A DNA stretch of 64,000 nt from Bacteroidota bacterium (GTDB taxonomy: Bacteria; Bacteroidota; Bacteroidia; UBA7662; JAIXUI01). Shown here in pieces: positions 25,891-43,664 of the stretch. The stretch is taken from the NCBI GenBank assembly GCA_027484125.1, contig JAIXUI010000054.1, positions 1 through 64,000 of the forward strand, given 5' to 3'. The notes under the pieces were generated by a model that did no database searches, had not been told where the DNA came from, and was given only the letters and a program-made list of their open reading frames with translations. Both the position numbers and the translations under genes were made by a program. How positions within the stretch are numbered: position 1 is the stretch's first letter; each line of letters starts with the position of its first letter.

Positions 25891-26894
25891 AGAAGACTTT
25901 AATTATTGCGGAAATAGCCCAAGCCCATGATGGAAGCTTGGGAATTCTACATTCCTATATCGATGCCTTGGCCGAAACCGGGGTTGATGTAGTCAAATTC
26001 CAAACTCATATAGCGGAAGCAGAAAGTTCTTCATTTGAACCCTTTAGAGTCAATTTTTCTTATGTTGATAAAACGCGCTTCGATTATTGGAAGCGGATGG
26101 GTTTTACTGAAGAGCAATGGGCTGGAATTAAAGCGCACTGTGAAGAAAAAGGAATGGAATTTATGTCTTCTCCTTTTTCTGTTGAAGCAGTAGAGCTGCT
26201 GGAACGTCTCCAAGTGAAACGATACAAAATAGGCTCTGGAGAAGTTTCAAACTTGCTGATGCTGGAGCATATTGCGCGTACCGGTAAGCCAATCATTCTT
26301 TCGTCCGGTATGAGTTCTTATGCAGAACTCGATTACACCATTGATTTTCTGAAAACAAAAAATGCAGAGTTAAGTCTGCTTCAGTGTAACACAGAATATC
26401 CAACTCCACCTGAACGCGTTGGTATTCAGGCCATGCTCGAAATGAAACAGCGTTATCAAATTCCAGTTGGATTGTCAGATCATTCTGCAACCTTGGCTGC
26501 TCCACTTTGTGCTGTAAGTCTGGGTGCTGAAATTCTCGAATTCCATGTGGTTTTCGATAGAAGAATGTTTGGACCAGATGCAGCATCCTCCCTGGAGATT
26601 GACGAGGTTAAGCAGTTGGTGCAGGCTGTGCGTCAGGTTGAAGTGATGCGTGATACCCACGTTGATAAAAACGATGTCGAAAGATTTTCTACAGCAAAAG
26701 TCATTTTTGGAAAAGCACTCGCTGTAAGAAGCAACTTGCCAGCCGGACATCAAATTAAATTCGAAGATTTGGAAACCAAAAAACCTGCAAACCAAGGTAT
26801 TCCGGCTTCTCAATTTCAAACAATTATCGGACGAACGCTGAAGCATCCGCTTTCTGCACAGTCTTTCCTCAACTTTGAAGATTTGGTTGAATGA
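25887..26894 (+). CDS. neuB: N-acetylneuraminate-type nonulosonic acid synthase NeuB
   Basis: A 335-residue NeuB-family enzyme condensing phosphoenolpyruvate with an N-acetyl-hexosamine such as ManNAc. The TIM barrel runs to about 265 (VKFQTH, KIGSGE, LSSGMSS, LQCNTEYPTP, GLSDHS), then a C-terminal SAF/antifreeze-like domain (from about 275: LPAGHQIKFEDLETKKP). Two motifs differ from classical NeuB: IAQAHDGSLG in place of the usual GVNHNGS, and EFHVVFDR in place of EKHFTLD, although the metal-binding histidines remain. It may therefore belong to a subfamily with another nine-carbon product such as legionaminic acid. The start is a GTG overlapping the tviC stop. Confidence 0.88.
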   Translation: MKKTLIIAEIAQAHDGSLGILHSYIDALAETGVDVVKFQTHIAEAESSSFEPFRVNFSYVDKTRFDYWKRMGFTEEQWAGIKAHCEEKGMEFMSSPFSVEAVELLERLQVKRYKIGSGEVSNLLMLEHIARTGKPIILSSGMSSYAELDYTIDFLKTKNAELSLLQCNTEYPTPPERVGIQAMLEMKQRYQIPVGLSDHSATLAAPLCAVSLGAEILEFHVVFDRRMFGPDAASSLEIDEVKQLVQAVRQVEVMRDTHVDKNDVERFSTAKVIFGKALAVRSNLPAGHQIKFEDLETKKPANQGIPASQFQTIIGRTLKHPLSAQSFLNFEDLVE

Positions 26895-28048
26895 CCAGAA
26901 GAAAAATTGCCGTAGTTGTTACGGCTAGGCCGAGTTATAGCAGAATTAAAACTGCGCTCAGAGCCATACAACAACATCCTGATTTAGAATTGCAATTGAT
27001 TATTGCCGCTTCAGCCTTGCTGGATCGATATGGTTCTGCTGTAAACTATATTCAGAAAGATGGTTTCGAAATTACCGCCAAGGTATTCAACGTGCTAGAA
27101 GGTGAAAATCTTACTGCAGCTGCCAAAACCACAGGTATCGGAATTTTGGAACTTTCAACGGTGTTCGACAACCTTCGTCCGGATATCGTGGTTACAGTAG
27201 CTGACCGTTTTGAAACCATGGCTACTGCTATCTCTGCTTCCTATATGAACATTCCATTAGCGCATGTTCAAGGAGGCGAAGTCACTGGAAATATTGACGA
27301 AAAGGTAAGACATGCCATTACCAAACTCGCCGACTATCACTTTACAGCTTCTGAAAGTGCACGTGAGCGTGTAATCAAACTAGGTGAACACGAAGACCGC
27401 GTTTGGAATACCGGTTGCCCCTCTATTGACTTGGCAGCGGAAGTTTTGCAAAGCCCGGCGCTAGATTTCGACCCGTATCAAAAATATGGTGGAGTTGGAG
27501 CTAAACCCGATTATAGCAACGGTTACGTAGTAGTGATGCAGCATCCTGTAACCACAGAGTACAAAGAATCCAGGGTTCATATCGAAGAAACCCTCCATGC
27601 AATTAGCGAACTCGACATACCGGTATTCTGGTTTTGGCCCAATGTTGATGCTGGTGCCGATGGTACTTCTTCTGGAATTCGTTCTTTCCGTGAAAAGAAT
27701 AAACTCAACCATGTTCATTTCTTCAAGAACATGGAACCCAATGATTTCCTTCGCCTTATTTACAATAGCAAAGCGTTAATCGGAAACTCAAGCGTAGGTA
27801 TTCGAGAAAGTGCATTTTTAGGTGTTCCCGTGGTAAACATTGGTTCTCGTCAAAACATGCGTGACCGAGGCGCTAATGTGATAGATGTAGAATATGAGAG
27901 GGCTGCAATTCTTAAAGCCATTGAAACTTGCAGTGTTAACCCAAAACCAACTCAAGATCATGTGTACGGTGGGGGAGATGCCGGTAAGAAAATAGCAGAT
28001 TTGTTGGCATCTGTTCCATTGAGTTTCCATAAAACGCTTGCTTATTAA
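26891..28048 (+). CDS. neuC: Hydrolysing UDP-GlcNAc 2-epimerase NeuC
   Basis: A 385-residue GT-B-fold epimerase of the NeuC type, releasing UDP while forming ManNAc (or the 2,4-diacetamido equivalent in the legionaminic pathway). Family segments are VVTARPSYSRIKTAL, VTVADRFETMATAISA, HVQGGEVTGNIDE, VRHAITKLADYHFT and the C-terminal IGNSSVGIRESAFLGVPVVNIGSRQ. The immediate neighbours neuB and neuA (overlaps of 4 and 1 base) make its product the NeuB substrate. The GxRQ-type end and hydrolysing signature separate it from the WecB-like epimerase at 45.8 kb. Confidence 0.92.
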   Translation: MTRRKIAVVVTARPSYSRIKTALRAIQQHPDLELQLIIAASALLDRYGSAVNYIQKDGFEITAKVFNVLEGENLTAAAKTTGIGILELSTVFDNLRPDIVVTVADRFETMATAISASYMNIPLAHVQGGEVTGNIDEKVRHAITKLADYHFTASESARERVIKLGEHEDRVWNTGCPSIDLAAEVLQSPALDFDPYQKYGGVGAKPDYSNGYVVVMQHPVTTEYKESRVHIEETLHAISELDIPVFWFWPNVDAGADGTSSGIRSFREKNKLNHVHFFKNMEPNDFLRLIYNSKALIGNSSVGIRESAFLGVPVVNIGSRQNMRDRGANVIDVEYERAAILKAIETCSVNPKPTQDHVYGGGDAGKKIADLLASVPLSFHKTLAY

Positions 28049-28749
28049 TGAGAGCAATAGCATTAATTCCTGCGAGAGGCGGCTCAAAAGGAGTTCCAGG
28101 AAAAAACATTGCACCTGTCTTAGGTAAACCCCTCATAGCGTTTAGCATTGAAGTAGCAATAGCATCAAATGCCTTCTCTGAAATTTGGGTTAGTAGTGAT
28201 GACGAAGCTATTCTCAATGTTGCTAGGCAATATCCTGAGGTTAAAATTCACCATCGTGATGGCTCTATCGCTCAAGATCACAGCCATATTAGTCTCACAA
28301 TCAAAGAGATCTTAGATATCTCAGATTCTAAAGCTGAAGCACTGGTGTTACTTCAGCCTACTTCTCCAATGAGGACGCCAGAACAGGTTATAGAGAGTAT
28401 TGCTTATCTGGAAAAGTACCCAGAAGCCAATTCTGTAATTTCAGTTTGCGCCATGCATGACATGCATCCAGCAAGGATGTATTGGATAGAGCAAGATGAG
28501 CCTTTCCTCAAGTCGATGATGCCTGAATTGGAAAACACCAGGAGACAGGAAATCCCGGCAGCATGGTATCGCAATGGCGCCATCTATGTAGTAAGAAAAC
28601 CAGCTTTTTACCAAGCAGGAACCATTATGGCACCGCCTAGTGTAGGTTACGCTATGCCTGCTTCTCAATTACTCAACATTGATGAGCCACGTGATATATT
28701 AATTGCTGAAGTAGTCATGAAAGAGTGGCTTAAAGCTTTGAACAAGTGA
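28048..28749 (+). CDS. neuA: CMP-nonulosonate cytidylyltransferase NeuA
   Basis: A 233-residue nucleotidyltransferase activating a sialic-type acid with CTP. The CTP-binding IPARGGSKGVPGKNI, the VLLQPTSPMR motif and the metal-binding acidic LLNIDEPRD near the C-terminus are present. Length matches the core NeuA domain without the O-acetylesterase extension. Its ATG shares one base with the neuC stop. A second, more divergent family member lies at 32.7 kb, so the locus seems to make two CMP-activated acids. Confidence 0.92.
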   Translation: MRAIALIPARGGSKGVPGKNIAPVLGKPLIAFSIEVAIASNAFSEIWVSSDDEAILNVARQYPEVKIHHRDGSIAQDHSHISLTIKEILDISDSKAEALVLLQPTSPMRTPEQVIESIAYLEKYPEANSVISVCAMHDMHPARMYWIEQDEPFLKSMMPELENTRRQEIPAAWYRNGAIYVVRKPAFYQAGTIMAPPSVGYAMPASQLLNIDEPRDILIAEVVMKEWLKALNK

Positions 28750-28781: not shown

Positions 28782-30185
28782 ATGAAAAAAATTGTTTACT
28801 TGGTTTCTCACGGTCATACCGCAAGAGGAATTATTCAAACAGGGTTGATAAAAAAACTTCTTGATTGTCATTTAGACGTACACGTATTCGCGATTGAAAG
28901 TGGCAATGAACAACTTCGCCAAAAGGTAACTTCTTCGGGAGGAAAGATTCATTTCTTTAAGCCTATGGATGGAAGAAGCTCATTCTTTAGTGAATGGTTT
29001 CGAGTTTATATGTTGGAAGACATCAAAGCCAATCCAGCGTTATGGGAGAAACATTTAAGGAGGATAGATAAGTCTCAAACGCCTCTACTTCGAAGAATAA
29101 TTGCAAGAGTTTTTAGGGTTATTTCTTTGATTTCTAACGCTTTTCCAATTCTGAAGAAGTTGTATCTCAGCATTGAGCGTTCAAGCAATCATGATGAAGA
29201 AATAAAGAAGAAGCTATTAGAAATTAAACCTGATTTAATCGTTTCTACAAGACCTGTAGACCGTTGGGAAGGTGTAGTGCTTGGTACCGCTCGTCTTTTG
29301 AAACTTAAACGTCTTCTAAATATTCTAAGCTGGGATAATATAACTAGCAAGGGTTATTTCCGTGAGGAAGGCGACTATTACTTATCATGGGGCCCAATAA
29401 TGACTCAGGAAATTGAGGAGTTCTATCAAGTTTCCAGAGACAACATCATTGAGACCGGCGTAGCACATTTTGACCTTCATTTTGAAAGCAGAACAGAAGG
29501 GAAACAGAAAGTGTGGCTTGAAAAGCTCGGTTTAAACCCTGATTATCCGTACATCTTTTTCTGCATGAGCGCACCTTATTTTTGTCCGGATGAAATTGAT
29601 ATTATTGAGTGGTTGGCAAAACGTGTTAAAGAGAAGCAATACGGAGACAATATGCAATTCATAGCTCGACCACATATGCAAAATATCAAGGGGAGAACAG
29701 CAGACACTACTTGGATTGGTCGTTTAAAAGCCATTGTTGGGGAAAGGGTTGCCGTCGATTTTCCAGATATGGAAGACAGTGAAATGACTTGGCATATGAA
29801 GCATGATGATATGGAGAAAATGTCAGCGCTTCTTGCTCACTCAACTATTGCAATGAATTCTTGCTCTACTGTAGCCATTGAATCTGTAATTGCTGACAGA
29901 CCAACTGTGATGCCCATGTTTGATGTGCACCAAGGATATCAAGAGTGGCAATCGGTAAAAAGAACAGGTGAGTTTACCCACATGAAAAAGTTTGTAGCTC
30001 TTGGAGGGGTTGAAATTGCCAAATCATTTGATGAGCTTGACGATTTTATTCGCAAAAATCTTACTGATCCTGATAGATTGAAGGCAAAGCGCCTTTATTC
30101 AGCTGAGCAAGAATGTTACAAAATAGATGGAAAAAGCACTCAGCGAGTAGCTGAGGCAATAGCTCAATTTGCGAATAGGCACTGA
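28782..30185 (+). CDS. Putative GT-B-type surface-glycan glycosyltransferase
   Basis: A 467-residue soluble protein with an N-terminal HGHTARGIIQTGLIKKL segment and a C-terminal nucleotide-binding-like half (YIFFCMSAPYFCP, QFIARPHMQN, STIAMNSCSTVAIESVIADRPTVMPM). The ARPHMQ plus NS-S-TVAIES pattern resembles CDP-glycerol glycerophosphotransferase- and capsule-type GT-B enzymes, where the histidine contacts the donor. There is no signal peptide; hydrophobic stretches near residue 110 are short. Donor and acceptor are unknown. It sits between neuA and the GDP-mannose 3,5-epimerase gene with short gaps. Confidence 0.6.
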   Translation: MKKIVYLVSHGHTARGIIQTGLIKKLLDCHLDVHVFAIESGNEQLRQKVTSSGGKIHFFKPMDGRSSFFSEWFRVYMLEDIKANPALWEKHLRRIDKSQTPLLRRIIARVFRVISLISNAFPILKKLYLSIERSSNHDEEIKKKLLEIKPDLIVSTRPVDRWEGVVLGTARLLKLKRLLNILSWDNITSKGYFREEGDYYLSWGPIMTQEIEEFYQVSRDNIIETGVAHFDLHFESRTEGKQKVWLEKLGLNPDYPYIFFCMSAPYFCPDEIDIIEWLAKRVKEKQYGDNMQFIARPHMQNIKGRTADTTWIGRLKAIVGERVAVDFPDMEDSEMTWHMKHDDMEKMSALLAHSTIAMNSCSTVAIESVIADRPTVMPMFDVHQGYQEWQSVKRTGEFTHMKKFVALGGVEIAKSFDELDDFIRKNLTDPDRLKAKRLYSAEQECYKIDGKSTQRVAEAIAQFANRH

Positions 30186-32685: not shown

Positions 32686-33438
32686 ATGAAACAAGGTAAA
32701 TTTCTAACAGTTGTCCCTTCCCGACTTGGAAGCAATCGAGTTCCAATGAAAGGAATGCGCTTGTTAGGAGGAGTTACACTTCTTGAGCATACGCTCAATG
32801 CCATTAAATCGAGTAAACATCTTGGAGAGGGTATTTATATCAACTCTGATGCTATCCAGTGGAAGGAAATAGCCAACAAACTTGGTGTAAACTTCTATCA
32901 CAGACGTGCAGAACTAGCCACCAGCACCTCTATGATTGATGATTATTTATATGACTTCATGAAAACAGTCCCTTCTGATTTTCTTGCTGTCATTACCCCA
33001 ACAGCACCATTTATTACAGGTAAAATTATTGATGAGGCAATACAAACTTACCTGGAGTCTGAAGCAAATACGCTCATTTCTTGTGAGAAAATACAGACTC
33101 ATTGCTTCTTCAATGGCCAATCACTCAATTTCTCTTGCAGTGGTCAATTGCCTCGATCACAGGACTTGCAACCTGTTCATGCCCTGAATTTTTCGATAGC
33201 GCTTTATGACACGAAAAAATTCATGGCTTCGTATGAAGCAAATGGTTTTGCTGTTCTCAGCGGAGATATTTTAACTTATCCCCTTGAGGGATTTGCAACC
33301 ATTGATATTGATGAAGAAGACGATTTCATCAGAGCAGAACTGGCTATTAAGTTTAAAGAAGCGCAAACAAGTTATCAGCCAAGCTATTCAGAGTTTGTTC
33401 AAGATTTGATTTCTACAGGAAAAGACACTAGAAATTAG
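32686..33438 (+). CDS. Second cytidylyltransferase-like (NeuA/KdsB superfamily) protein
   Basis: A 250-residue nucleotidyltransferase related to acylneuraminate cytidylyltransferases. The nucleotide loop reads VPSRLGSNRVPMKG, close to the PARxGSKRxPxKN pattern, and VITPTAPFI plus a terminal FATIDIDEEDDF carry the metal-binding region. It is clearly different from neuA at 28 kb. The following HAD phosphatase and GAPDH-like genes suggest a separate CMP-activated acid. The substrate cannot be deduced. A 90-base gap separates it from wzy. Confidence 0.8.
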   Translation: MKQGKFLTVVPSRLGSNRVPMKGMRLLGGVTLLEHTLNAIKSSKHLGEGIYINSDAIQWKEIANKLGVNFYHRRAELATSTSMIDDYLYDFMKTVPSDFLAVITPTAPFITGKIIDEAIQTYLESEANTLISCEKIQTHCFFNGQSLNFSCSGQLPRSQDLQPVHALNFSIALYDTKKFMASYEANGFAVLSGDILTYPLEGFATIDIDEEDDFIRAELAIKFKEAQTSYQPSYSEFVQDLISTGKDTRN

Positions 33439-33495
33439 TTTTTTCTTTAGAACCTTCATGGGGAAAATTCACCTCGTTGGGTTTTCCATACTACT

Positions 33496-34134
33496 ATGTT
33501 AAAAAGCCTTCCTCCAACCATTATCCTTGATGTTGACGGTGTCATTTTTGACTCTAATCAACTCAAGGAACAAAATATTAAGCGAGCTGCTTCTCAAGTG
33601 CTTCATGGGGTTGCTCTAAACGATTTTGTCCATCGATTTACCTCTCAAAATGGTATAACCCGACAAACTAAAATAGCCTTTCAATTTGGCGAGAATACTC
33701 CTAATTATCACTTGGTGCTCAACGCTTATGAAGAGCTAAATAATACGAGCTTATACTCAGTTGATTTCACTAATAATGCCAAAGAGATAATAGAAGAGCT
33801 CTCAAGAACATCCAGATTGATAGCTTTATCAGGAGGTGAAGAAAGAGAGGTCAAAAGGCTTTTTGATGTTAAGGAAATCACAGCTTTTTTTGACAAAATT
33901 TGCGGAGGCCCCAAAGGAAAGAAAGAGCACCTTGATGAGCTCAATCTTAAAGGAGAAGTTTGGTTTTTTGGGGATAGCAAAATGGATTATGAAAGCGCCA
34001 AACACATTGGAGCAAAATTCATATTTCTCTCCGATTACACACAAATGACGGATTGGGAAGCTTTCTTTTCAGATAAAAATGAAGTAAGTGTAAGTGATAA
34101 CCTTGCTACTTTTTTTGGATTTAAAAACACTTAA
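33496..34134 (+). CDS. HAD-family phosphatase
   Basis: A 212-residue haloacid-dehalogenase-superfamily hydrolase. Motif I is LDVDGVIFDS with D12 (nucleophile) and D14, motif II is IALSGG, the conserved lysine is in GPKGKK, and motif IV is FFGDSKMDYESA. A helical C1 cap lies about residues 20-85. In nonulosonate and Kdo pathways a HAD enzyme removes the phosphate from the 8- or 9-phosphate before CMP activation, so its position right after a cytidylyltransferase is suggestive. It precedes the GAPDH-like gene by 9 bases. Confidence 0.85.
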   Translation: MLKSLPPTIILDVDGVIFDSNQLKEQNIKRAASQVLHGVALNDFVHRFTSQNGITRQTKIAFQFGENTPNYHLVLNAYEELNNTSLYSVDFTNNAKEIIEELSRTSRLIALSGGEEREVKRLFDVKEITAFFDKICGGPKGKKEHLDELNLKGEVWFFGDSKMDYESAKHIGAKFIFLSDYTQMTDWEAFFSDKNEVSVSDNLATFFGFKNT

Positions 34135-34143
34135 AAACCAGAT

Positions 34144-35199
34144 ATGTTGAAAATTGGAATTAATGGATTCGGAAGAATTGGCCGAGCCATTTTCAGAAAC
34201 AACCTCGACAAGAAGATGTTTGAGGTTGTGGCGATTAACGATGTGAATCCAAACATCAAGAATATTGCCTACACGCTCAACTACGACACTTTGTATGATC
34301 GTCTTCATGTTTTATATAAAGCTGAAGGAAATAGTTTAATGAGTGAAGATGGTCATGTGATTGCTGTCACCCACGAGAAGAGTATCAATGATGTGGATTG
34401 GGCGGCTCATGGTTGTGATTTCGTTATCGACGCTTCTGGTGTTTATAGTAATGTAGTGGATGCACACAAACTAATTGAGCGGAAAGGTGTGAAAAGAGTT
34501 TTTATCACCCATTGCCCCAATAATGTGGACTTTACTATGGTTCTAGGAGCCAATGAAACCGATTTAGATTTAGACAAACAGTTTGTTATTTCTACGTCAA
34601 TCTGTGATGCTACAGCCATAGCTCCAGTCATGAAAGCAGTGTCAGATCGTTTTGGAATTACCCATGGTTATGCTACTACTTTGCACCCTTGGTTAAATTA
34701 CCAAAATTTGATGGATGGGCCTGCTAGTTCTTGGTCAGTGCCTGGTGAAATTTACCACCATTTTGCTCTTGGCCGTTCTGCTATTGGAAACATGATTCCA
34801 AAGCCAACCACTGCCATTACCGCAACTTGTTCAGTGCTTAAGAAACATGGAATCACCGAGGATATTATTGGTTCCTTTTCCTACCGTACTCCAACCGCGA
34901 TTGTTGGTAGTGCTGACTTAACGCTTCACTTAAGAGATCGTGCAGAGACTAAAGACGTTTTGGCGATGTTTGAAGAAATGGAACAAACCCAGTTTTGGCC
35001 TATTATTCATAATAATTGGGAGCCATTAGTTTCTCTAGATTTTAAAAAGGCCGACTTTGCTGCAGTGGTAGATCATCGCTGGACCAATGTCATTCAAGGT
35101 CATATGCTCAAGCTAGTACTTTGGTACGACAATGAATGGGGATATGCCGCTCGAGTTCTCGATCAATTAAAATTGGTTCAGAATAAGTTAGGTCTTTAG
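34144..35199 (+). CDS. Divergent glyceraldehyde-3-phosphate dehydrogenase-like enzyme
   Basis: A 351-residue GAPDH-fold protein in a polysaccharide locus. The NAD domain (INGFGRIGRAIF, INDVN) and the C-terminal WYDNEWGYAARVLD are canonical. The active-site segment reads STSICDATAIAP instead of SNASCTTNCLAP: the nucleophile C154 and the general base H181 remain with the normal spacing of 27, but the phosphate-binding threonine after the cysteine is aspartate and the STG Pi-site loop is KPT. I infer an aldehyde or aldehyde-phosphate dehydrogenase with another substrate (compare erythrose-4-phosphate dehydrogenase). It is followed directly by a terminator. Confidence 0.85.
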   Translation: MLKIGINGFGRIGRAIFRNNLDKKMFEVVAINDVNPNIKNIAYTLNYDTLYDRLHVLYKAEGNSLMSEDGHVIAVTHEKSINDVDWAAHGCDFVIDASGVYSNVVDAHKLIERKGVKRVFITHCPNNVDFTMVLGANETDLDLDKQFVISTSICDATAIAPVMKAVSDRFGITHGYATTLHPWLNYQNLMDGPASSWSVPGEIYHHFALGRSAIGNMIPKPTTAITATCSVLKKHGITEDIIGSFSYRTPTAIVGSADLTLHLRDRAETKDVLAMFEEMEQTQFWPIIHNNWEPLVSLDFKKADFAAVVDHRWTNVIQGHMLKLVLWYDNEWGYAARVLDQLKLVQNKLGL

Positions 35200-35211
35200 T
35201 CTATACAATCA

Positions 35212-35249
35212 GGCCTGCTTATTTTTAAATAAGCAGGCCCAATTTTTTT
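35212..35249 (+). terminator. Rho-independent terminator inside the polysaccharide locus
   Basis: A perfect 13-base stem (GGCCTGCTTATTT at 35212-35224 with its complement at 35227-35239), 2-base loop, followed by CAATTTTTTT. It follows the GAPDH-like stop by 12 bases and ends one base before the next ATG, so it should uncouple the downstream genes unless read through. Confidence 0.93.
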
Positions 35250-35250
35250 A

Positions 35251-36312
35251 ATGGCAACATTGTTTATTATTTCCAATCCTACGCAATATTTAAATGCGAT
35301 AGAGTTGGTAACACAATTTCCAAATCGGTTTACAAACAATAAATTGGTTGTAATTACTGATTTCACCGAAGGAATAGAAAGAATAGATCAAATATTAGCA
35401 AAATCTTATTGGGATGAAAAAAAGATGATCCCCCTTCGATCTTCCGGATATGCACCATCTGATTGGAGAAGTTGGCGTCATGCGTATTTAGCAGCTACTG
35501 AATATATTAAAACGATTACTTATGACCAACTGGTATTAGGTAATTTAGGTGATCCTTTAATTTATGCAATTCTTCAAACTGTTTATAATCCGGCAATAAA
35601 ACCTGTAGTTGTTGATGATGGAACACCTACTATCAATATATTAGCCTGCAGGAGACAAGGTCTGGATTACGAACGTTTTCATTCACCCAGAGGTATTCAA
35701 TTAATAAAGTCACTTCTTGCATTTCGATTTTATATAGGATTTAAAAAACCTCTTAAATCGTATGAGTTTTTTACTTTATTTCCAGCAGAAGCCAGCAACC
35801 AAGATATAGTTGTGCTTAATAAAATGCTCACGCTTAAATCTTTCTATAAAAATCAATCTATCAATCAAAAAATAGTTTATTTCGTAGGTTCTCAAATAGT
35901 AGATAAGGGAATGGTAGATGAAATACTTTATCTAAATGCTCTAAAAAATATTGTAGCTGATTTTCAGTCAAGAGGAAAACAAGTTCAATACATTATACAC
36001 AGAAGCCAATCAAAAGCTTTTCAAAATAAAGTTTCTGAAATTGTTGAAACAATTTCTTTTAATCTTCCACTTGAATTTGCCTTACGCGACAGAGAGGTTC
36101 CGGGTACGTTTGCCGGCTTTTTCTCAACAGCGTTGTTTACTTTGAACGCCATTCATTCTAAGTCAAACGTGATAGCATTTGAATTTCCCTCACAAGCGCT
36201 TCATGATTCTAAATTAGAATCGATTCAAGATGTTTTGGCGATTTATTCACTTTTGAAAAATACAGAGGGAATTAAAATTCGGACAATAGAAACCTCCGGA
36301 AGAATAAACTAG
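35251..36312 (+). CDS. Putative sialyltransferase-like glycosyltransferase, AT-rich
   Basis: A 353-residue protein I assign tentatively to the bacterial sialyl/polysialyltransferase-like GT-B group. It has a D/E-D/E-G-type motif (VVVDDGTPTI, about residue 126), a QYIIHRSQS segment at the position of the HP motif, and GTFAGFFSTALFTL resembling the serine motif that contacts CMP. The HP proline is missing, so the call is cautious. Three sampled 60-base lines have only about 28-32% G+C, lower than neighbouring genes, hinting at separate acquisition. Its ATG sits just after a terminator T-tract with no clear Shine-Dalgarno site. The upstream neuBCA genes supply the expected donor. Confidence 0.55.
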   Translation: MATLFIISNPTQYLNAIELVTQFPNRFTNNKLVVITDFTEGIERIDQILAKSYWDEKKMIPLRSSGYAPSDWRSWRHAYLAATEYIKTITYDQLVLGNLGDPLIYAILQTVYNPAIKPVVVDDGTPTINILACRRQGLDYERFHSPRGIQLIKSLLAFRFYIGFKKPLKSYEFFTLFPAEASNQDIVVLNKMLTLKSFYKNQSINQKIVYFVGSQIVDKGMVDEILYLNALKNIVADFQSRGKQVQYIIHRSQSKAFQNKVSEIVETISFNLPLEFALRDREVPGTFAGFFSTALFTLNAIHSKSNVIAFEFPSQALHDSKLESIQDVLAIYSLLKNTEGIKIRTIETSGRIN

Positions 36313-36315
36313 AAA

Positions 36316-37263
36316 ATGCCTAAAATTGCAATTACAGACTACTTCACTGAAGATAGCGTAGAAAGAGAAATACTTGGAGATTTAGTAGGAATTGGTCCAG
36401 ATTCAGATACTGAAGTTTTATTGGTGTGGCATGAACACATCAACGAAGCATACATCCGTCAATTTCCAAAAGTAAAAGCTGTTCAACGTTATGGCGTTGG
36501 GTATGACACCCTAGATCTTCCATTTCTGTTAAGTAACGGAATCAGGTGTTGCAACAATCCTGATTATGGAACAGATGAAGTTGCTGACACTGCTGTTGCG
36601 ATGATAATGAACATTGCCCGCGGAATAAGTCAGTATAATCATTTGGCTAAAGGCTATTTTGCTGATTGGCAGGAGAATATCAATCCTCTCGTGAAGCGCA
36701 ATAGTGAGACTGTGGTAGGTGTAATAGGTTCAGGGCGAATAGGTGGATCTGTGGTGCTGAAGTGTAATGCGCTCAAATTTAAAACCGTAATTTTTGACCC
36801 TTTCAAGGAGCGTGGCCATGAAAAAATGCTTGGAACCAAACGAGTAGATTCAATAGAAGAGTTACTCGAAATTTCCGATATAATATCCTTGCATGCCCCG
36901 TTAAACTCAAAAACCAAAGGCATGGTTGATGAGCATTTTATTGCGAACATGAAACCAGGAGCCTCCCTTGTAAATACAGCTAGAGGCGGTTTAGTAAAGA
37001 ATTTAGATATACTTTTAGAAGGGTTACTAAGCGGAAAACTCAATCAGGTTGCTTTGGATGTATTGGTTCATGAACCACCTCAATCAGAACCGCTAATCGA
37101 TGCTTGGCGAGCAAACCATCCAGAGATTGCCGGTCGATTAACAATTAATCCTCATACGTCTTACTATTCTCAGGAGTCGTATCTGGAATTGAGAAGAAAT
37201 GCTGCGAAGAATGCACTGCGCCTTTTAGAAGGTAAGGAAGCATATAATATACTTTCTGAGTAA
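36316..37263 (+). CDS. D-isomer 2-hydroxyacid dehydrogenase
   Basis: A 315-residue NAD-dependent 2-hydroxyacid dehydrogenase of the SerA/PdxB/CtBP superfamily. The Rossmann motif is VGVIGSGRIGGSV, and the catalytic Arg-Glu-His set is readable in NTARGGLV, LVHEPPQSEP and NPHTSYYS. It lacks an ACT domain, so it is not a classical SerA. Within a surface-glycan locus it could make or oxidise a 2-hydroxy acid used as a substituent, such as lactate or glycerate. With the GAPDH-like gene it echoes the Epd/PdxB pair that oxidises erythrose 4-phosphate. It starts 3 bases after the preceding stop. Confidence 0.88.
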   Translation: MPKIAITDYFTEDSVEREILGDLVGIGPDSDTEVLLVWHEHINEAYIRQFPKVKAVQRYGVGYDTLDLPFLLSNGIRCCNNPDYGTDEVADTAVAMIMNIARGISQYNHLAKGYFADWQENINPLVKRNSETVVGVIGSGRIGGSVVLKCNALKFKTVIFDPFKERGHEKMLGTKRVDSIEELLEISDIISLHAPLNSKTKGMVDEHFIANMKPGASLVNTARGGLVKNLDILLEGLLSGKLNQVALDVLVHEPPQSEPLIDAWRANHPEIAGRLTINPHTSYYSQESYLELRRNAAKNALRLLEGKEAYNILSE

Positions 37264-37358: not shown

Positions 37359-38492
37359 ATGAAAAAACTGACCATCTGCAACGTTACAAGTATGCACGAC
37401 TGGAACGATGATCGTATTTTTGAGCGAGCATCGGTAGGTTTGGCTGCTGCTGGTCATGATGTTTACTTTGTTGCACCTGCTGACCAAGATAAAATAGTAG
37501 AAGGCGTAAAAATTGTTTCAATTGCACAACGCACGAGATTAGGCAAACATTTAATGGGACCATTTGATGCATTCAGAAAAATGCGGTCCATTAAAGCAGA
37601 TGTTTATCATTTCTATAACCCCAATATGCTTTTAATCATGGGTATTTGGGCTAAGCTTAGTGGCGCTAAAGTGTTTGTAGATATTCATGAGAATTATGAG
37701 TCGAGGGTAGACAAACTGCCACTACCCGGCTTTTTAAGAAGGCCTTTGATAAAGTTCTATCGCTGGCTTGAGAATACATTATGTGGCATGTTGTCGGGTG
37801 TTACCGTTGTTACCGAAAGCATGCGTCAGAAAATGTTGGCTTCCGGAGTTCCTATTTTGGTTGTCGATAATGTTCCGTACTTAAAGCGATTAGAAGGAAT
37901 TGAATTGGCTAAAGAAAAACATATTCGTCCTACGATAATAACGTCAGGTTCTCATTCAGAAGCCAGAAACTGCTTGGAAGCAGTAGAGGCACTTCCAATG
38001 ATTGTTAAAGAAATACCAGATGTTCAAATGATGTTTGTAGGACGATTTACTCCTGCAAGCTATGAACAGGTTTTGAAAGACAAGGCTAAGGAATTAGGTG
38101 TTGAAGCCAATTTCTCTACTGAAGGAATGCTGCCTTGGTTGGAGAATTTTAAACGTGTTTCAAGAGCGCATATTGGGTGTGTTTTCTATAATGATAATCT
38201 TAATAACAGGGTTACCTTGCCCAATAGGCTATATGAATACATGTATTGTGGGCTTGCTGTTTTAGGTGAGAATTTTCCGGAGGTGAAGAAAGTATTAGAT
38301 AAGTCTAATGCTGGAGCTGTAGTTGATTCTAAAAATCCTGAATCCATTGCAAAAGCGTCTATTTCTTTATTGAAGGAAGCTTCTACACGAGAGCAATGTT
38401 CAGCTAATGCGATGTACGCAGTTAAGACCACCTATAACTTTGAAAGGGCGCTGGACGAGCTAATTCGCTTTTATCAAAAATCGCTAGCATGA
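37359..38492 (+). CDS. Glycosyltransferase family 4
   Basis: A 377-residue GT-B glycosyltransferase. The N-terminal domain has the HDWNDDRIFERAS and FVDIHENYESRVDK segments; the C-terminal nucleotide-sugar-binding domain (from about 185) has IITSGSHSEARN, MMFVGRFT, and the late LPNRLYEYMYCGLAVLGENFPEV, which is the E-x7-E-like donor-binding region. It is a retaining transferase acting at the cytoplasmic face on undecaprenyl-linked intermediates. Donor and acceptor are not predictable. A 95-base gap precedes it, and its stop overlaps the CapK-like gene by 4 bases. Confidence 0.88.
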   Translation: MKKLTICNVTSMHDWNDDRIFERASVGLAAAGHDVYFVAPADQDKIVEGVKIVSIAQRTRLGKHLMGPFDAFRKMRSIKADVYHFYNPNMLLIMGIWAKLSGAKVFVDIHENYESRVDKLPLPGFLRRPLIKFYRWLENTLCGMLSGVTVVTESMRQKMLASGVPILVVDNVPYLKRLEGIELAKEKHIRPTIITSGSHSEARNCLEAVEALPMIVKEIPDVQMMFVGRFTPASYEQVLKDKAKELGVEANFSTEGMLPWLENFKRVSRAHIGCVFYNDNLNNRVTLPNRLYEYMYCGLAVLGENFPEVKKVLDKSNAGAVVDSKNPESIAKASISLLKEASTREQCSANAMYAVKTTYNFERALDELIRFYQKSLA

Positions 38493-39832
38493 ATAACCTA
38501 AAAGCGCTTGCCTTTAATGCTGCTTTATTTTATGAGCATCTTACGAATAAAGAAGCTACCAAGGCCAATCAAATACTGGATCGTGCGGATCAGCTAGACA
38601 GAAATGGCATCCTTCAAATGAAAGAGGAGGCTTTTCAAGATATCATCAAGCACACATTAGAATACTCTTCCTACTATAAAGAGATAGCTCAACAACGTGG
38701 ATTAACAGCAAGTGATTTTAAATCAATTGCGGATTTGAATAAATTGCCTTATTTAACCAAAGACATCATCAAATCAAGAAGGAACGACATTATAGTCAAT
38801 AATATTCCCGAAAGTGAATGCATCAAACGAACTTCTGGTGGCACCACAGGAGAACCTATTTACATAGAAGTAGATAAGCAATGCCGGACCAATGATCTTT
38901 ACTTCTATTACAGAGGGTTAAGGTGGATGGGTTGGCAGCCTGGGTACCAGATGGTGAAATTTTTTGGCGGTAGTTTATCAGGTCAAAACGCTCCTACATT
39001 AAGAAATAAGATTAAGAAATACCTGTCTGGAGAAGTTTTTCTTCCTGCATTTAATTTCAATAAAGACACCGCACTTCAATACTTGGATACCGTAAAAGCT
39101 CAAGGCGAAACCTTTGTTCAAGGGTATGTTTCTTCTATTTATAACCTAGCTGTTTTAACCAAAGAACTTAACTACAAAGGGCTGAAAATAAAAGGAGCAT
39201 TTACCACAGCAGAACAACTTCCCGATGAACAAGCACAGTTCGTCAAAGAAGTACTTGGTTGTGATGTTAAAGCTTTTTACGGATGTGCAGAAATTAACTG
39301 TCTTGGTTTTCAAACCATTATGGGTGGTAGATACATCAGTCCTGATGAGATTATTCATATTGAATCGACCCAACATCCAGATTTACCTTTGGATAATGCG
39401 TTTCTTCTAACCTCTCTTTTCAACAAAAAAACACCGCTACTTCGTTATCTCAATGGTGACAATGGAACGTTAGGTTCACATGGTAAGTACTCCACCATAG
39501 AAGAGTTGTCTGGCCGGTCGGCGGATATGTTCCGAAGAAAAGATGGAAGTTTAATTTCTTCTATTGTGGCGACCCAAACCATGCAAATTACCGGGTTGAC
39601 TCATAAAGTAAAGAAATATCAACTCTGGCAAACCGCTATTGATAAGGTAGAAATTCCTTATCTGCCATTTCTAGAATCTGAACCGCTAAGTGCAGAGGAA
39701 CGCAAACACATCGAGGCCATGTATAAAAAACGTTTAGGTGACGAATTTGAAGTAACCATGTATCTGTCCGATCAGTTTGTTCAAAGTGCTTCAGGTAAAC
39801 ATCGCCTCATGATTAACAAACTAAATTCGTAA
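38489..39832 (+). CDS. CapK/PaaK-type AMP-dependent ligase
   Basis: A 447-residue adenylate-forming protein of the phenylacetate-CoA ligase/CapK family, which is frequent in capsule loci. The ATP-binding loop is RTSGGTTGEPIYIE (about residue 112), followed by FFGGSLSG, GAFTTAEQLP and FYGCAEINCLGFQ; the C-terminal domain (about 345-447) is complete. It should activate a carboxylic acid as adenylate or thioester, but the acid is unknown. It overlaps the glycosyltransferase before it and precedes the ATP-grasp gene by 6 bases. Confidence 0.88.
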   Translation: MNNLKALAFNAALFYEHLTNKEATKANQILDRADQLDRNGILQMKEEAFQDIIKHTLEYSSYYKEIAQQRGLTASDFKSIADLNKLPYLTKDIIKSRRNDIIVNNIPESECIKRTSGGTTGEPIYIEVDKQCRTNDLYFYYRGLRWMGWQPGYQMVKFFGGSLSGQNAPTLRNKIKKYLSGEVFLPAFNFNKDTALQYLDTVKAQGETFVQGYVSSIYNLAVLTKELNYKGLKIKGAFTTAEQLPDEQAQFVKEVLGCDVKAFYGCAEINCLGFQTIMGGRYISPDEIIHIESTQHPDLPLDNAFLLTSLFNKKTPLLRYLNGDNGTLGSHGKYSTIEELSGRSADMFRRKDGSLISSIVATQTMQITGLTHKVKKYQLWQTAIDKVEIPYLPFLESEPLSAEERKHIEAMYKKRLGDEFEVTMYLSDQFVQSASGKHRLMINKLNS

Positions 39833-39838
39833 ATAGGC

Positions 39839-40894
39839 ATGAAACAGTATTTGCTTCCACTATATTTTCAATACAGATTTACCAAATATTTCTTTCAATT
39901 CATAAAGCCAATTGGCATTAAGAACCTTATTTGGTGTTATTTTAATGGGTTTTTTCCTAAGAACTTCGTTCTGTTTAATTTGGCCAAAAACAATCCCAAA
40001 TTATTTGTAAGTGATTTTGAAGAAAACTTTAGAATATCCAGAATCAATAAAAATCCACAGGTGCTGAATAATAAGTTAGTATTTCCTGAAATTATTGGAT
40101 CATTCTTTAAGGCGCCCAAAATACATGCTTTAATTTATCAAGGAAGATTTTTGCCTTATAAGCCCGAATCTAATTTTACAGAATCGGCGGCACTTGAATA
40201 TTTGAAATCCGGAAATGCTATCATCATGAAACCAATAGATGGTGATGGTGGAATAGGAATTGTAAAAGTGAACTTCGATACCTACCAAAACCAATATAAT
40301 TGGAATGGAAACTTCATTCATGAGGCGGAATTATTACGTAGGTTTTCAACATTGAACAACTATTTGGTCAGTGAATTTGTGAAGCAAGGTGAATATACGT
40401 CAGCGCTTTACGCTAATGCTGTGAATACGATCAGGATTATGTCCATGATTGATCCGGAAAATAGCCAGCCTTTTGTTGCTTTTGCAGCTCATAGAATAGG
40501 CAACGATAAGTCGGCTCCGGTTGATAACTGTGCAATGGGTGGATACACTGCCCCAATTGACGTTAAGACGGGAAAAATGGGAGCTGCCTCAGCTTCTAAA
40601 TTCGAAGGAATGGAAAAGCCGCATTATCCTGTTCATCCAAACTCGGGAAACCCGATTGAGGGAATTGTTATTCCGCATTGGGAGCAACTCAAACAAGAAA
40701 TCTGTGCACTTCATGGACGGCTCAGTTATATCAATTACATCGGTTGGGACATCGTTTATGCTGCCGACGGACACTTCTATCTGCTTGAAGGAAACGACCA
40801 AGTAGATTTAAAGCTTCATCAAGTTCATAGCCCGCTTTTACTCGATGAAGCGGTCAAAAAATTCTACACTTACCATAAGGGAATTAAAGGATAA
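39839..40894 (+). CDS. Sugar-transfer-associated ATP-grasp protein
   Basis: A 351-residue protein of the ATP-grasp family found in polysaccharide loci (ATPgrasp_ST-like). Key parts are KPIDGDGGIGIVKV (glycine-rich loop, about 125-140), NTIRIMSMID, the DNCAMGGYTAPIDVKTG segment, HPNSGNPIEGIVIPHWEQL and the end IGWDIVYAADGHFYLLEGN with the metal-binding acids. ATP-grasp enzymes activate a carboxylate as acyl phosphate and join it to an amine or thiol. With CapK, FemAB-like and AsnB-like neighbours it suggests amide-linked substituents on the glycan. It shares one base with the next gene. Confidence 0.85.
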   Translation: MKQYLLPLYFQYRFTKYFFQFIKPIGIKNLIWCYFNGFFPKNFVLFNLAKNNPKLFVSDFEENFRISRINKNPQVLNNKLVFPEIIGSFFKAPKIHALIYQGRFLPYKPESNFTESAALEYLKSGNAIIMKPIDGDGGIGIVKVNFDTYQNQYNWNGNFIHEAELLRRFSTLNNYLVSEFVKQGEYTSALYANAVNTIRIMSMIDPENSQPFVAFAAHRIGNDKSAPVDNCAMGGYTAPIDVKTGKMGAASASKFEGMEKPHYPVHPNSGNPIEGIVIPHWEQLKQEICALHGRLSYINYIGWDIVYAADGHFYLLEGNDQVDLKLHQVHSPLLLDEAVKKFYTYHKGIKG

Positions 40895-41895
40895 TGGCGG
40901 GGAAGGTAAGTTTTGAATTTCACATCTATCAGCCAGAGCAATTTGGTGCATGGGATGAGTATGTGCGTTTGCACCCCAATGGAACACTTTTTCACACCAC
41001 TTCTTGGTTGAAAAGAATCAAAGGTGAACTTTCGGTCTTTGTAGTTGAGAAAGAAGGAATAATAGTTGGCGGATATGCCGGCTTATCCTATATAAAAAAT
41101 AGGCAAAAGGGATTTCATGTTCCACCATTAACGCCCTACACCGGACCATTGGTAAGCAGATCTTGGGAGAAAAAATCTGTTCAAGAAGAGCATGATGTTT
41201 TAAACTTTCTTTTAGAAAATCTCCCCAACGCTCCCCATTGGGATTTCATGTATGCTGTTGAAGATACGTTTATTCACCCCTTCCATTGGAAAGGATTTAG
41301 CTCTTCAATGGGCGTATCTTATGTAATCAATAAGCCCTACGACACATGGCTCTCCGGGATGAATAAAAACAAAATTCGAGAGTATAAAAAACTTGAAGAA
41401 GCGGTTCAAAAAGGAGAATTAAAAGTAACGCTTAATGGGCCAATAGCTCCAATTCTGGATCTTAATCAAGTTACAGCTTCCAGAAATGGGTTCTCTTTTG
41501 ACCGTCCAACTTTAGAAGCACTATTTTCTCCAACAGATCATTCATGTACCCGAACCATGTTAATCGAATCTGCGGAATTTGGGCCACTTAGTGGTTCTAT
41601 CATGGTGTTCGATGACAAAGGAATGTACAACCTCATCAATGGTTCTGTAAGAGTAGACCATCCCGTGTATAAGACTATCAACCTTTATGCACTTTGGGAT
41701 GGGATTCAATTCGCGCTTTCGAGTGGAAGATTCTTCGATTTTGAAGGCTCGATGCTCAAAGGGGTAGAATCGTTTTATCGATTAATGGGCGGCGAGTATC
41801 AATACAAAATGAGGTTTCAAAAAACCAATTCTATCCCATATTTGCTAGCTCGCTTATTTCTTCAGTTTAAAAGCGAACGTAAATCCCTTAAATAA
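40894..41895 (+). CDS. FemAB/GNAT-fold acyltransferase-like protein
   Basis: A 333-residue protein of the FemAB/BioF2-like acetyltransferase clan. Typical parts are TLFHTTSWLKRI near residue 30, a basic KNKIREYKKLEEAVQKG helix, SGSIMVFDDKGMYNLINGS, and the end DFEGSMLKGVESFYRLMGGE. FemAB relatives transfer aminoacyl groups from tRNA to peptidoglycan; related glycan-locus proteins may N-acylate sugars. The donor here is unknown. It overlaps both neighbours by one base, so it belongs with the ATP-grasp and AsnB-like genes as one functional block. Confidence 0.82.
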   Translation: MAGKVSFEFHIYQPEQFGAWDEYVRLHPNGTLFHTTSWLKRIKGELSVFVVEKEGIIVGGYAGLSYIKNRQKGFHVPPLTPYTGPLVSRSWEKKSVQEEHDVLNFLLENLPNAPHWDFMYAVEDTFIHPFHWKGFSSSMGVSYVINKPYDTWLSGMNKNKIREYKKLEEAVQKGELKVTLNGPIAPILDLNQVTASRNGFSFDRPTLEALFSPTDHSCTRTMLIESAEFGPLSGSIMVFDDKGMYNLINGSVRVDHPVYKTINLYALWDGIQFALSSGRFFDFEGSMLKGVESFYRLMGGEYQYKMRFQKTNSIPYLLARLFLQFKSERKSLK

Positions 41896-43664
41896 TGATT
41901 GCCGGATTTTATTGGGGAAATGAGCAAGATGTGCCTGCTGTAACGCAATTATGGGAGGCTGCTGGATTGAACACCATCAATATGGGCAGCGTTGCGGGAA
42001 AACAACTTTTGTTGGCCCCAAAAATTCTGATAGAAACAACTTTGGTGGTAACCTCCGCCGAATGGAAAGCAACCGCGGTGGGCGTATTTATTTACAAAGG
42101 ATTTGTTGCAGAAGAGGCTGTTCGATTAGCTTTAACGGATCTTGAACATCATCGATTTGATGAACTTGCGGTAAGGGGGACATTTGCATTCCTTGTCTAT
42201 AATGAAGAGCATCTTAAAATTTGGCTTGATGCAACAGTTATACAGCATTTGTATGTGAATAAAGCCCAAAAAGCACTTTCTACTTCTTTCCTAGCTTTGG
42301 TAGAAACGCAATCAAATAGAACTCCTCAACTAGAATCTTTCCAAGAACTGTTACTAACGGGCACTCAGATTGGCCCTGAAACCTTGGTAAAAGGAATTTT
42401 CAAAACAGAGCCTCATTATATTCCTGAGATAGCCGGTGTAGAAATTAAGATTTGCAAGCGGCCTACTCAGGAATCAGACTACAAGTCAAGAGAAGAAGCT
42501 CTTGACCATGCTCAAGCCCATTTAGAAGCCTGTTTCAACGATTACCGCGGTTTGGCTACCGCTCACGGAGCGCTGCTGGGTTTAACAGGTGGCCTCGATA
42601 GTAGGTTGAACTTAGCTGTTGCTTTGAAAAAGTGGCCAAAGCCCATTGAAGTTTATACGAATTGCAGAATCCGAAAAGGTAAAGAGCAGGTAATTGATGA
42701 GCCACTAGCTCAAAAAGCAGCAGAAAGTGTTGGCTTGACCTTGCGCGCAGGATGGATGGTTCATCCTTTAGATATGGATGATGTGCAACTGGCGGAGGTT
42801 ATGGAGCAGTCCTATCAGTTTTTTGATGGCCATGGCAGAATGCACGCCCAATGGTTTGAGGATTACAATACTGCAAGATTTAAGAAAGCGCTGATGGGTA
42901 ATCGGCTTTTCGGATTGAGTGGAATTGGGGGAGAACAGTACCGGAATTTTGAAGGAATGCTAACTCCAACTTGGAGTCGGGATTATTTTATTCGATATCA
43001 TCTTGCCTTGAATTATTGTGGTCCTGTTTTTAAAAATCAACAGGCTGAAGATTCCTTTGCTGATTCGCTTGGTGAACGGGTTTGGAGTAAAATTAAACCT
43101 GCAAAATCAGACAGAGTTTCACACTCGGAAGTCAAACAATACCTCAACGAAATACTGATAAGCAATCGTTTAGGAGCAAGAAACAATGCCGAGAACCGCT
43201 TGGCTTGGTTTGCTAGCCCTTTTACAGACCCCGGTGTGAGTATTCCTGCTTATGGCTTAACCAAATGGCTGGGAAGTTCTATCGAGTTTGAAAAAGATTT
43301 GATAGTAAGGCTTAATGATTCATTAGCGAATGTTCCTCTTGATTATGGCATACGCCCTAAAGACGACTTATCGTTAAAAATGAAAATCAAACCTTGGGTT
43401 CGCCATTTCACTCCTTCAAGATTGTGGGTGGACAAGCGTATTGGCCCATTGTCGGAACCGGGTTCTTATCAATTGTTTAATGAGCTTTCGGCTCAATCCA
43501 CCTTAATAAAAACTTGTGTGGAAGAAGTGAACAAACTTTCACTTCCCATCCATTTGAATAGACTTTGTGCATTGCCTGATTTTATGCCGATTGTAGTCAA
43601 TATGGGCTACTTTTTACTTAAGCTCAAGCAACCTTCTTTAAGTACTAGAGTAAAATATGAATGA
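41895..43664 (+). CDS. Asparagine-synthetase-like amide ligase lacking the glutaminase cysteine
   Basis: A 589-residue AsnB-superfamily protein. The C-terminal adenylating domain has the PP-loop GLTGGLDSR (T231 to S236). The N-terminal half (about 1-190) keeps the class II amidotransferase layout, but the protein starts MIAGFYW rather than MCG, so the nucleophilic cysteine is absent, and no other early cysteine could replace it. Either ammonia or another amine is the acceptor, as in beta-lactam synthetase relatives. In loci making GalNAcA, AsnB-like proteins amidate the uronic acid (for example WbpS and Francisella WbtH). It overlaps both neighbours. Confidence 0.85.
   Translation: MIAGFYWGNEQDVPAVTQLWEAAGLNTINMGSVAGKQLLLAPKILIETTLVVTSAEWKATAVGVFIYKGFVAEEAVRLALTDLEHHRFDELAVRGTFAFLVYNEEHLKIWLDATVIQHLYVNKAQKALSTSFLALVETQSNRTPQLESFQELLLTGTQIGPETLVKGIFKTEPHYIPEIAGVEIKICKRPTQESDYKSREEALDHAQAHLEACFNDYRGLATAHGALLGLTGGLDSRLNLAVALKKWPKPIEVYTNCRIRKGKEQVIDEPLAQKAAESVGLTLRAGWMVHPLDMDDVQLAEVMEQSYQFFDGHGRMHAQWFEDYNTARFKKALMGNRLFGLSGIGGEQYRNFEGMLTPTWSRDYFIRYHLALNYCGPVFKNQQAEDSFADSLGERVWSKIKPAKSDRVSHSEVKQYLNEILISNRLGARNNAENRLAWFASPFTDPGVSIPAYGLTKWLGSSIEFEKDLIVRLNDSLANVPLDYGIRPKDDLSLKMKIKPWVRHFTPSRLWVDKRIGPLSEPGSYQLFNELSAQSTLIKTCVEEVNKLSLPIHLNRLCALPDFMPIVVNMGYFLLKLKQPSLSTRVKYE

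Follow-up and report, generated by a model that had tools for sequence, protein, structure and literature searches.

The well-studied sugars activated with cytidine monophosphate (CMP), namely 3-deoxy-D-manno-octulosonic acid (Kdo) and sialic, legionaminic, and pseudaminic acids, are, to our knowledge, all made by condensation with phosphoenolpyruvate (PEP) and are for that reason all 3-deoxy. Their pathways (KdsA-KdsC-KdsB for Kdo and NeuB-NeuA, LegI-LegF, or PseI-PseF for the nonulosonic acids) use a PEP-dependent synthase (KdsA/NeuB), remove a phosphate with a haloacid dehalogenase (HAD) family phosphatase before activation, end in a CTP_transf_3/KdsB cytidylyltransferase, and have a sialyltransferase-like glycosyltransferase as the user. 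Here we describe a gene module at positions 32686-37263 of a 64,000-nucleotide stretch of DNA (the window; positions 1-64,000, forward strand, of contig JAIXUI010000054.1, assembly GCA_027484125.1) from a Bacteroidota bacterium (UBA7662; JAIXUI01) whose genome of 3.33 Mb is 99.7% complete. The module likewise contains a cytidylyltransferase, a HAD phosphatase in a KdsC-like role, and a sialyltransferase-like glycosyltransferase, but it has no PEP-dependent synthase; in place of the latter stand a relative of glyceraldehyde-3-phosphate dehydrogenase (GAPDH), referred to from here on as GAPL, and a 2-hydroxyacid dehydrogenase (2HADH), with an optional enzyme of pyruvate-aldolase type or fumarylacetoacetate hydrolase (FAH) fold. 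The succession of a GAPDH-superfamily dehydrogenase and a 2-hydroxyacid dehydrogenase is also that of the Epd-PdxB branch of vitamin B6 synthesis, and GAPL shares its fold, NAD site, and catalytic Cys and His with glycolytic type I GAPDH. We propose, with roughly even confidence for and against, that the module makes a CMP-activated 2-ulosonic acid for a surface polysaccharide by oxidation and not by condensation with PEP or pyruvate. The module recurs in surface-sugar loci of many phyla and is apparently undescribed; a full-text literature search found no description of this gene set.

The first-pass annotation of the window had read this region as genes for a cytidylyltransferase, a HAD phosphatase, a GAPDH relative with the motif STSICDAT, a transferase, and a 2HADH, and the open reading frames, the Pfam and NCBIfam searches, and the catalytic residues bear it out. 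The five genes are separated by gaps of 3-57 bp (Table 1), and none of their products reached the cut-off of an NCBIfam equivalog model. Because a terminator-like hairpin stands between the GAPL and transferase genes, the five may not share one transcript. The PF04464-like gene listed in Table 1 may encode a further transferase belonging to the module, and such a gene lies immediately 5' of the HAD-GAPL pair in the related loci L024, L025, L026, and L027 (loci are designated by L numbers throughout).

Table 1. Features of the module and the PF04464-like gene upstream of it
Feature	Proposed role	Position in window	Strand	Basis
CTP_transf_3, NeuA/PseF/KdsB-type cytidylyltransferase	Proposed CMP-loading step	32686-33438	+	PF02348, 63 bits (cut-off 22.6)
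HAD-family phosphatase		33496-34134	+	PF13419, 46 bits
GAPL, divergent GAPDH-superfamily dehydrogenase	Proposed non-phosphorylating aldose phosphate oxidation	34144-35199	+	PF00044/PF02800
Terminator-like perfect 12-bp hairpin, then T run		35212-35239	+	
GT-B transferase	Proposed user of CMP-activated acid sugar	35251-36312	+	Fold matches; no Pfam match
D-2-hydroxyacid dehydrogenase (2HADH)	Proposed aldonate to 2-oxo acid	36316-37263	+	PF02826/PF00389
Glyphos_transf-like (PF04464) transferase		28782-30185	+	32.6 bits (cut-off 22.1)

GAPL is not a glycolytic GAPDH. The genome of the window encodes one other GAPDH, 32% identical to GAPL, which has the usual SNASCTTN motif and lies directly upstream of pgk (contig C66), and this arrangement rules out GAPL as a normal glycolytic enzyme or a duplicate of one. 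GAPL itself has no pgk or tpi gene in its surroundings. Catalytic Cys154 and His181, which correspond to Cys149 and His176 of type I GAPDH, are invariant in GAPL, whereas the active-site motif reads STSICDAT instead of SNASCTTN. Further, in an alignment to Bacillus GAPDH (1gd1), Ser148 and Thr150, which we take to bind inorganic phosphate (the Pi site), are replaced by Ile and Asp; Thr179 and Asp181, which we take to bind the substrate phosphate (the Ps site), are replaced by Leu and Tyr, with Arg231 retained; and the S-loop is ∼10 residues longer. The loss of the Pi site suggests that the thioester may be hydrolyzed to the free acid, in the manner of Epd, and the Epd of Salmonella has likewise lost the phosphate-site Thr179, which is Met there. 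GAPL scored 226 bits against the NCBIfam GAPDH-I model (cut-off 367) and 178-187 bits against the Epd models (cut-offs 531-539), and it forms its own clade with the motif S[TSN]SICDA..HPWL[SN]YQN. In the tree, GAPL stands apart from Epd: together with a Campylobacterota group, which is nested within it (support 0.995), it forms a clade separated from ordinary GAPDH and Epd by a long branch whose support is only 0.60.

The remaining core enzymes also retain their catalytic residues. The closest solved relative of the cytidylyltransferase is the CMP-Neu5Ac synthetase of Neisseria meningitidis, whose metal-binding Asp pair (DID) is aligned and retained. It scored 59.5 bits against the PseF equivalog (cut-off 205.7) and stayed under the cut-off of every PseF, NeuA, and KdsB model, and we regard it as a homologue of the CMP-ulosonate synthetases and a putative CMP-sugar maker. 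In other GAPL loci, this slot is occupied by NeuA-, PseF-, or KdsB-like members, and these families load the anomeric hydroxyl of 2-ulosonic acids. The HAD protein has the DxD, SGG, Lys, and GDS..D elements, and motifs I-IV are retained in its relatives. The catalytic triad of 2HADH (Arg223, Glu253, and His280) is present. This enzyme had been called SerA/PdxB-like, of which the SerA part holds and the PdxB part does not: 2HADH scored 168 bits against the phosphoglycerate dehydrogenase (SerA) model (cut-off 454) and 91 bits against the PdxB model (cut-off 434, with only part of the profile matched), both far below cut-off, and it is a SerA/CtBP-like protein with no particular PdxB character. 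It belongs to a subfamily of its own, specific to GAPL loci, with a signature (WH near residue 38, R.GVG[YF]D, N.PDYG, and INPH) that is common to members across phyla and is not found in two further 2HADHs encoded by the window genome. The parallel drawn in the first-pass annotation with the oxidation of erythrose 4-phosphate by Epd and PdxB is thus not supported, given the higher score of GAPL with GAPDH-I than with Epd, its place in the tree, and the separate 2HADH subfamily; the module proteins neither group with Epd and PdxB nor pass their models, and they are encoded in a glycan locus.

The transferase of the window had no Pfam match. AlphaFold modeling on four homologues (predicted local distance difference test score (pLDDT) of 82) gave, as top fold matches in the PDB, the polysialyltransferases 5wcn (rank 1, with CDP, E = 7.5e-13) and 5wc6 and the Neisseria NST sialyltransferase 2yk5. 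The DDG motif is present and is invariant in the four homologues, the usual HP motif reads HR here, and the homologue in L025 scored 20.3 bits against PF07388 (cut-off 23.3). Judged from these models, the transferase appears to resemble the GT-B glycosyltransferases of the bacterial polysialyltransferase and NST sialyltransferase type (GT38/GT52), as would be expected for a CMP-ulosonate donor. A homologue lies directly 3' of the 2HADH gene in L024, L025, and L027. Other GAPL loci have instead DUF115/MptE-like proteins (PF01973, a family that includes the Maf flagellin-glycosylation proteins) or large GT-B-like proteins; the ∼620-amino-acid proteins 3' of 2HADH in several phyla gave low-confidence AlphaFold models (pLDDT of 59) with only a generic GT-B signal.

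To place the module in a wider context, 84,980 species genomes were scanned with a four-sequence GAPL alignment, which returned 80 loci picked by GAPL sequence alone. Together with the window and loci of its phylum, these were sorted by motif into 52 GAPL loci, 17 loci of Campylobacterota type, and 12 with ordinary GAPDH, two being not scorable. Neighbors were counted within 5 kb, L097 included, in which GAPL is cut by a contig end; owing to contig ends, the counts for GAPL loci are lower bounds, and loci of one phylum are not independent. The 2HADH of the WH..PDYG subfamily was found near GAPL in 36/52 loci, CTP_transf_3/KdsB members also in 36/52, a HAD protein of one of two families in 33/52, and all four families of the window together in 26 of the 52. 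The same partners occurred around none of the 12 ordinary GAPDHs and none of the 17 Campylobacterota-type proteins. The co-occurrence in other loci that the first-pass annotation had put forward as a check is thus real and far above chance. The genes recur in the order HAD-GAPL-CTP-(FAH or HpcH)-2HADH or GAPL-HAD-CTP-(FAH or HpcH)-2HADH. Further, pairwise distances of GAPL correlated with those of its partners (ρ of 0.29 for 2HADH, 0.35 for the cytidylyltransferase, ∼0.42 for the HADs, and 0.71 for FAH), and at most 2 in 1000 permutations reached as high a value for any partner (2/1000 for 2HADH and 0/1000 for FAH).

The GAPL loci come from more than 10 phyla and include Bacteroidota, Calditrichaeota, KSB1, Omnitrophota, Myxococcota/Deltaproteobacteria, Oligoflexia, Alpha- and Gammaproteobacteria (SAR86), Firmicutes (Paenibacillus, Defluviitaleaceae, and Faecalicatena), Prochlorococcus, Chloroflexi, Chlamydiae, a Woesearchaeota bin, and others; many of the genomes are metagenome bins, so that single taxon names may be wrong. 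Closer to the window, GAPL was found in 0/197 other genomes related to the window genome and in 3/396 genomes of the phylum (61-68% identity), which suggests that the module is accessory and horizontally spread. A plasmid search for the module gave no match at 1e-50, and phage carriage was rejected, the matches among phages and in IMG/VR being ordinary GAPDHs of ∼27-33% identity. NeuB-like genes were found near GAPL in only five loci and outside the recurrent order. In the window itself, a separate set at 25887-28749, encoding NeuB, a UDP-GlcNAc 2-epimerase (NeuC), and a NeuA-like CTP_transf_3 protein for an ordinary nonulosonic acid, forms part of the same glycan locus.

The optional enzyme was missed in the first-pass annotation because the window lacks it. 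It belongs either to the FAH superfamily (PF01557), found within 5 kb of GAPL in 19/52 loci, or to the HpcH/HpaI pyruvate aldolases (PF03328), found in 11/52, and the two interchange in one slot between the cytidylyltransferase and 2HADH; both occur within 5 kb only in L053, whose HpcH is a distant member. The HpcH proteins are closest to 2-keto-3-deoxyglucarate/HpaI/YfaU aldolases, with solved “hydroxyketoacid aldolase” structures among their matches, and the FAH proteins are closest to HpaG and its relatives. Both families bind the enolate of a 2-oxo acid on a divalent metal, and no role in glycan synthesis was described for either in the papers searched. Where the FAHD1-like protein of the window genome reads NYAAH, the FAH proteins of the slot read NYKDL or NYKGV (the alignment also included a row for human FAHD1, entered by hand). 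The missing His is part of the FAH hydrolytic dyad, and the FAH proteins of the slot are therefore unlikely, from their sequences, to be hydrolases. In the window, L024, L029, and L087, the four core genes occur with neither enzyme. No dedicated FAH or HpcH protein was found elsewhere in the window genome, and searches of these four genomes found no HpcH relative (three of the searches had no positive control) and only housekeeping-type FAH matches (28-29% identity) or none. The core pathway thus works without a slot enzyme or borrows one from housekeeping metabolism.

In the pathway that we favor, GAPL would oxidize an aldose phosphate at its aldehyde group and, with no uptake of phosphate, release the free aldonate phosphate; 2HADH would oxidize C2 of this product to a 2-oxo-aldonate (phosphate); and the HAD protein would remove the phosphate, leaving a 2-oxo-aldonate as the cyclic ulosonate. 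The cytidylyltransferase would convert this to CMP-ulosonate, from which the polysialyltransferase-like enzyme would transfer the sugar to the glycan. In most relatives, the HpcH/HpaI aldolase or the FAH-fold enzyme lacking His would perform an extra step (C3 epimerization or aldol chemistry) with which the variant in the window dispenses. By chemical reasoning, at least five carbons are needed if the ring must close, so that erythrose 4-phosphate, via erythronate 4-phosphate and its 2-oxo acid, would not directly yield a substrate: a tetrose-derived 2-oxo acid cannot form the cyclic 2-hydroxyl normally used by CMP-ulosonate synthetases, and the C4 product of the Epd-PdxB branch cannot be a cyclic ulosonate. 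Of the first-pass interpretation as a whole, the undescribed gene set, the nonglycolytic GAPL, and an acidic precursor activated with CMP, as far as we can infer, are upheld, and the Epd/PdxB parallel is not; that the intervening transferase may fit a CMP donor is a point it had missed.

Several observations weigh against the oxidative pathway. The order of the steps is itself deduced; none of the module enzymes is close enough to a characterized protein for its substrate to be fixed; and the glycosyltransferase fold match is moderate (TM score about 0.53). GAPDHs use open-chain aldehydes, and pentose and longer aldose phosphates are mostly cyclic. A purely oxidative synthesis of a ulosonate leaves the aldolase or FAH-fold gene of most loci unexplained. 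Further, 12 loci have GAPL with neither 2HADH nor CTP_transf_3, so that its product may feed other chemistries. The wider generalization, that there is a second route to nucleotide-activated ulosonic acids in which C1 and C2 of an aldose phosphate are oxidized and the acid sugar retains its 3-hydroxyl, is one that we offer tentatively and doubt more than we trust.

The main rival is an aldol scheme in which GAPL, 2HADH, and the HAD protein make a short 2-oxo acid, such as hydroxypyruvate or the corresponding C4 acid, and this acid, or pyruvate, is condensed with an aldehyde by the HpcH or FAH-fold enzyme to give the ulosonate that is then loaded with CMP. The kinship of the HpcH proteins to known aldolases, the exchange of HpcH for an FAH protein without the hydrolytic His, and the parallel of aldolase, HAD, and CMP-synthetase with KdsA-KdsC-KdsB all speak for such a scheme. 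We nevertheless consider it unlikely, since four loci have the core genes and neither enzyme, nor a dedicated copy elsewhere in the genome, and since glyceraldehyde 3-phosphate as the substrate would give 3-phosphoglycerate, already a central metabolite, which would make a dedicated GAPL superfluous. A more improbable explanation is that two adjacent functions are seen together, the cytidylyltransferase serving an ordinary nonulosonic acid with NeuB, NeuC, and NeuA, and GAPL, 2HADH, and HAD making a small acid substituent, for instance glycerate-like, that is attached by another enzyme such as the product of the adenylating-ligase-like gene at 38489. The upstream NeuB, UDP-GlcNAc 2-epimerase, and further CTP_transf_3 genes, the CoA-ligase-like gene downstream, and the glycerate kinases adjoining GAPL in L036, L040, and L095 are in keeping with it; the frequency of CTP_transf_3 in or beside the tight cluster (36/52 GAPL loci) argues against it, as does the presence of a separate NeuA in the window.

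The likelihood is slimmer again that a nucleotidyltransferase acts on the aldonate phosphate itself, giving a CDP-linked acid that a glycerophosphotransferase-like enzyme polymerizes. IspD- or MobA-like nucleotidyltransferases do lie by GAPL in L036, L040, L057, L058, L060, and L086, some with a Glyphos_transf gene, and the subgroup of the window has a PF04464-like gene 5' of the module, but where 2HADH is present, the nucleotidyltransferase is a CTP_transf_3/KdsB member, of a type that loads ulosonates at the anomeric hydroxyl, and the HAD protein would strip the phosphate. Hardly credible, finally, is that ordinary GAPDH and SerA duplicates, or Epd and PdxB for vitamin B6, are carried in a polysaccharide island: kinship at the level of fold is in its favor, and against it stand the glycolytic GAPDH elsewhere with pgk, the distinct clade, the altered catalytic motif, the module-specific 2HADH subfamily, and an association that recurs in many phyla. 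A phosphonate reading was also rejected, as a PEP-mutase-type gene is apparently near GAPL in L053, L054, and L056 of Balneolales (seen from a look at the sequences only) and most loci have none.

If the oxidative pathway is true, the GAPDH-2HADH module would represent a new route, and bacterial surfaces would probably gain a new monosaccharide, that is, a new class of sugar or a source of a rare one over many phyla; the module would also explain a protein clade that now resembles glycolytic GAPDH as one dedicated to surface glycans. The combination of SICDA/HPWL.YQN with WH/PDYG provides a signature for genome searches, and the synthetic steps are all assigned to predicted soluble enzymes. 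Odd ulosonic acids do exist, as indicated by the 4-deoxy-2-hexulosonic acid of Escherichia coli K3, which appears among the references of PMC10433991; no connection of it to these genes was seen.

GAPL also occurs in other settings. In loci without 2HADH, it adjoins glycerate kinases of two unrelated families (L036:5747-7039; L040:6008-7159, L095:8726-9952), and in loci without 2HADH and CTP_transf_3 it lies next to nucleotidyltransferases of MobA type (as in L036 and L040) or IspD type. Such neighbors are consistent with GAPL supplying aldonate phosphates to the synthesis of several kinds of activated acid. In L057:8225-11290, L058:5024-7641, and L060:5706-8345, GAPL lies by an IspD-type cytidylyltransferase and a CDP-glycerol glycerophosphotransferase homologue, possibly for a CDP-linked acid polymer. 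A dehydroquinate-synthase-like protein and a short-chain dehydrogenase are encoded near GAPL in three unrelated loci (L036:4138-5283, L065:6938-8071, and L066:11757-12881). Beside the module in L021 (2596-7078) is a further gene set, which encodes a separate 2-hydroxyacid dehydrogenase and cytidylyltransferase, a cyclase (PF04199), and apparently an inositol phosphatase and a sugar isomerase; a cyclase is also found just 3' of GAPL in L045. An apparent DRE-TIM aldolase of the 4-hydroxy-2-oxovalerate type, together with KdsB-like and HAD proteins, lies beside the module in L038 (13431-16431) and perhaps represents another CMP-ulosonate route. On the 3' side of the module in the window (38489-43664), an adenylating-ligase-like protein (weak PaaK-type match), a sugar-transfer ATP-grasp protein, an unassigned 333-amino-acid protein, and an asparagine-synthase-like protein are encoded, as is seen in glycan loci whose products carry acyl or amino-acid groups. 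The Campylobacterota-type GAPDH paralogue (L062, L063, L067, L069-L073, L076-L078, L080-L082, L084, L085, and L088) reads STSSCNAT and HPLLNHQ and has a housekeeping context, in some cases beside gap-pgk or tpi-like genes; candidate roles are those of sole GAPDH or of a substitute for Epd in vitamin B6 synthesis.

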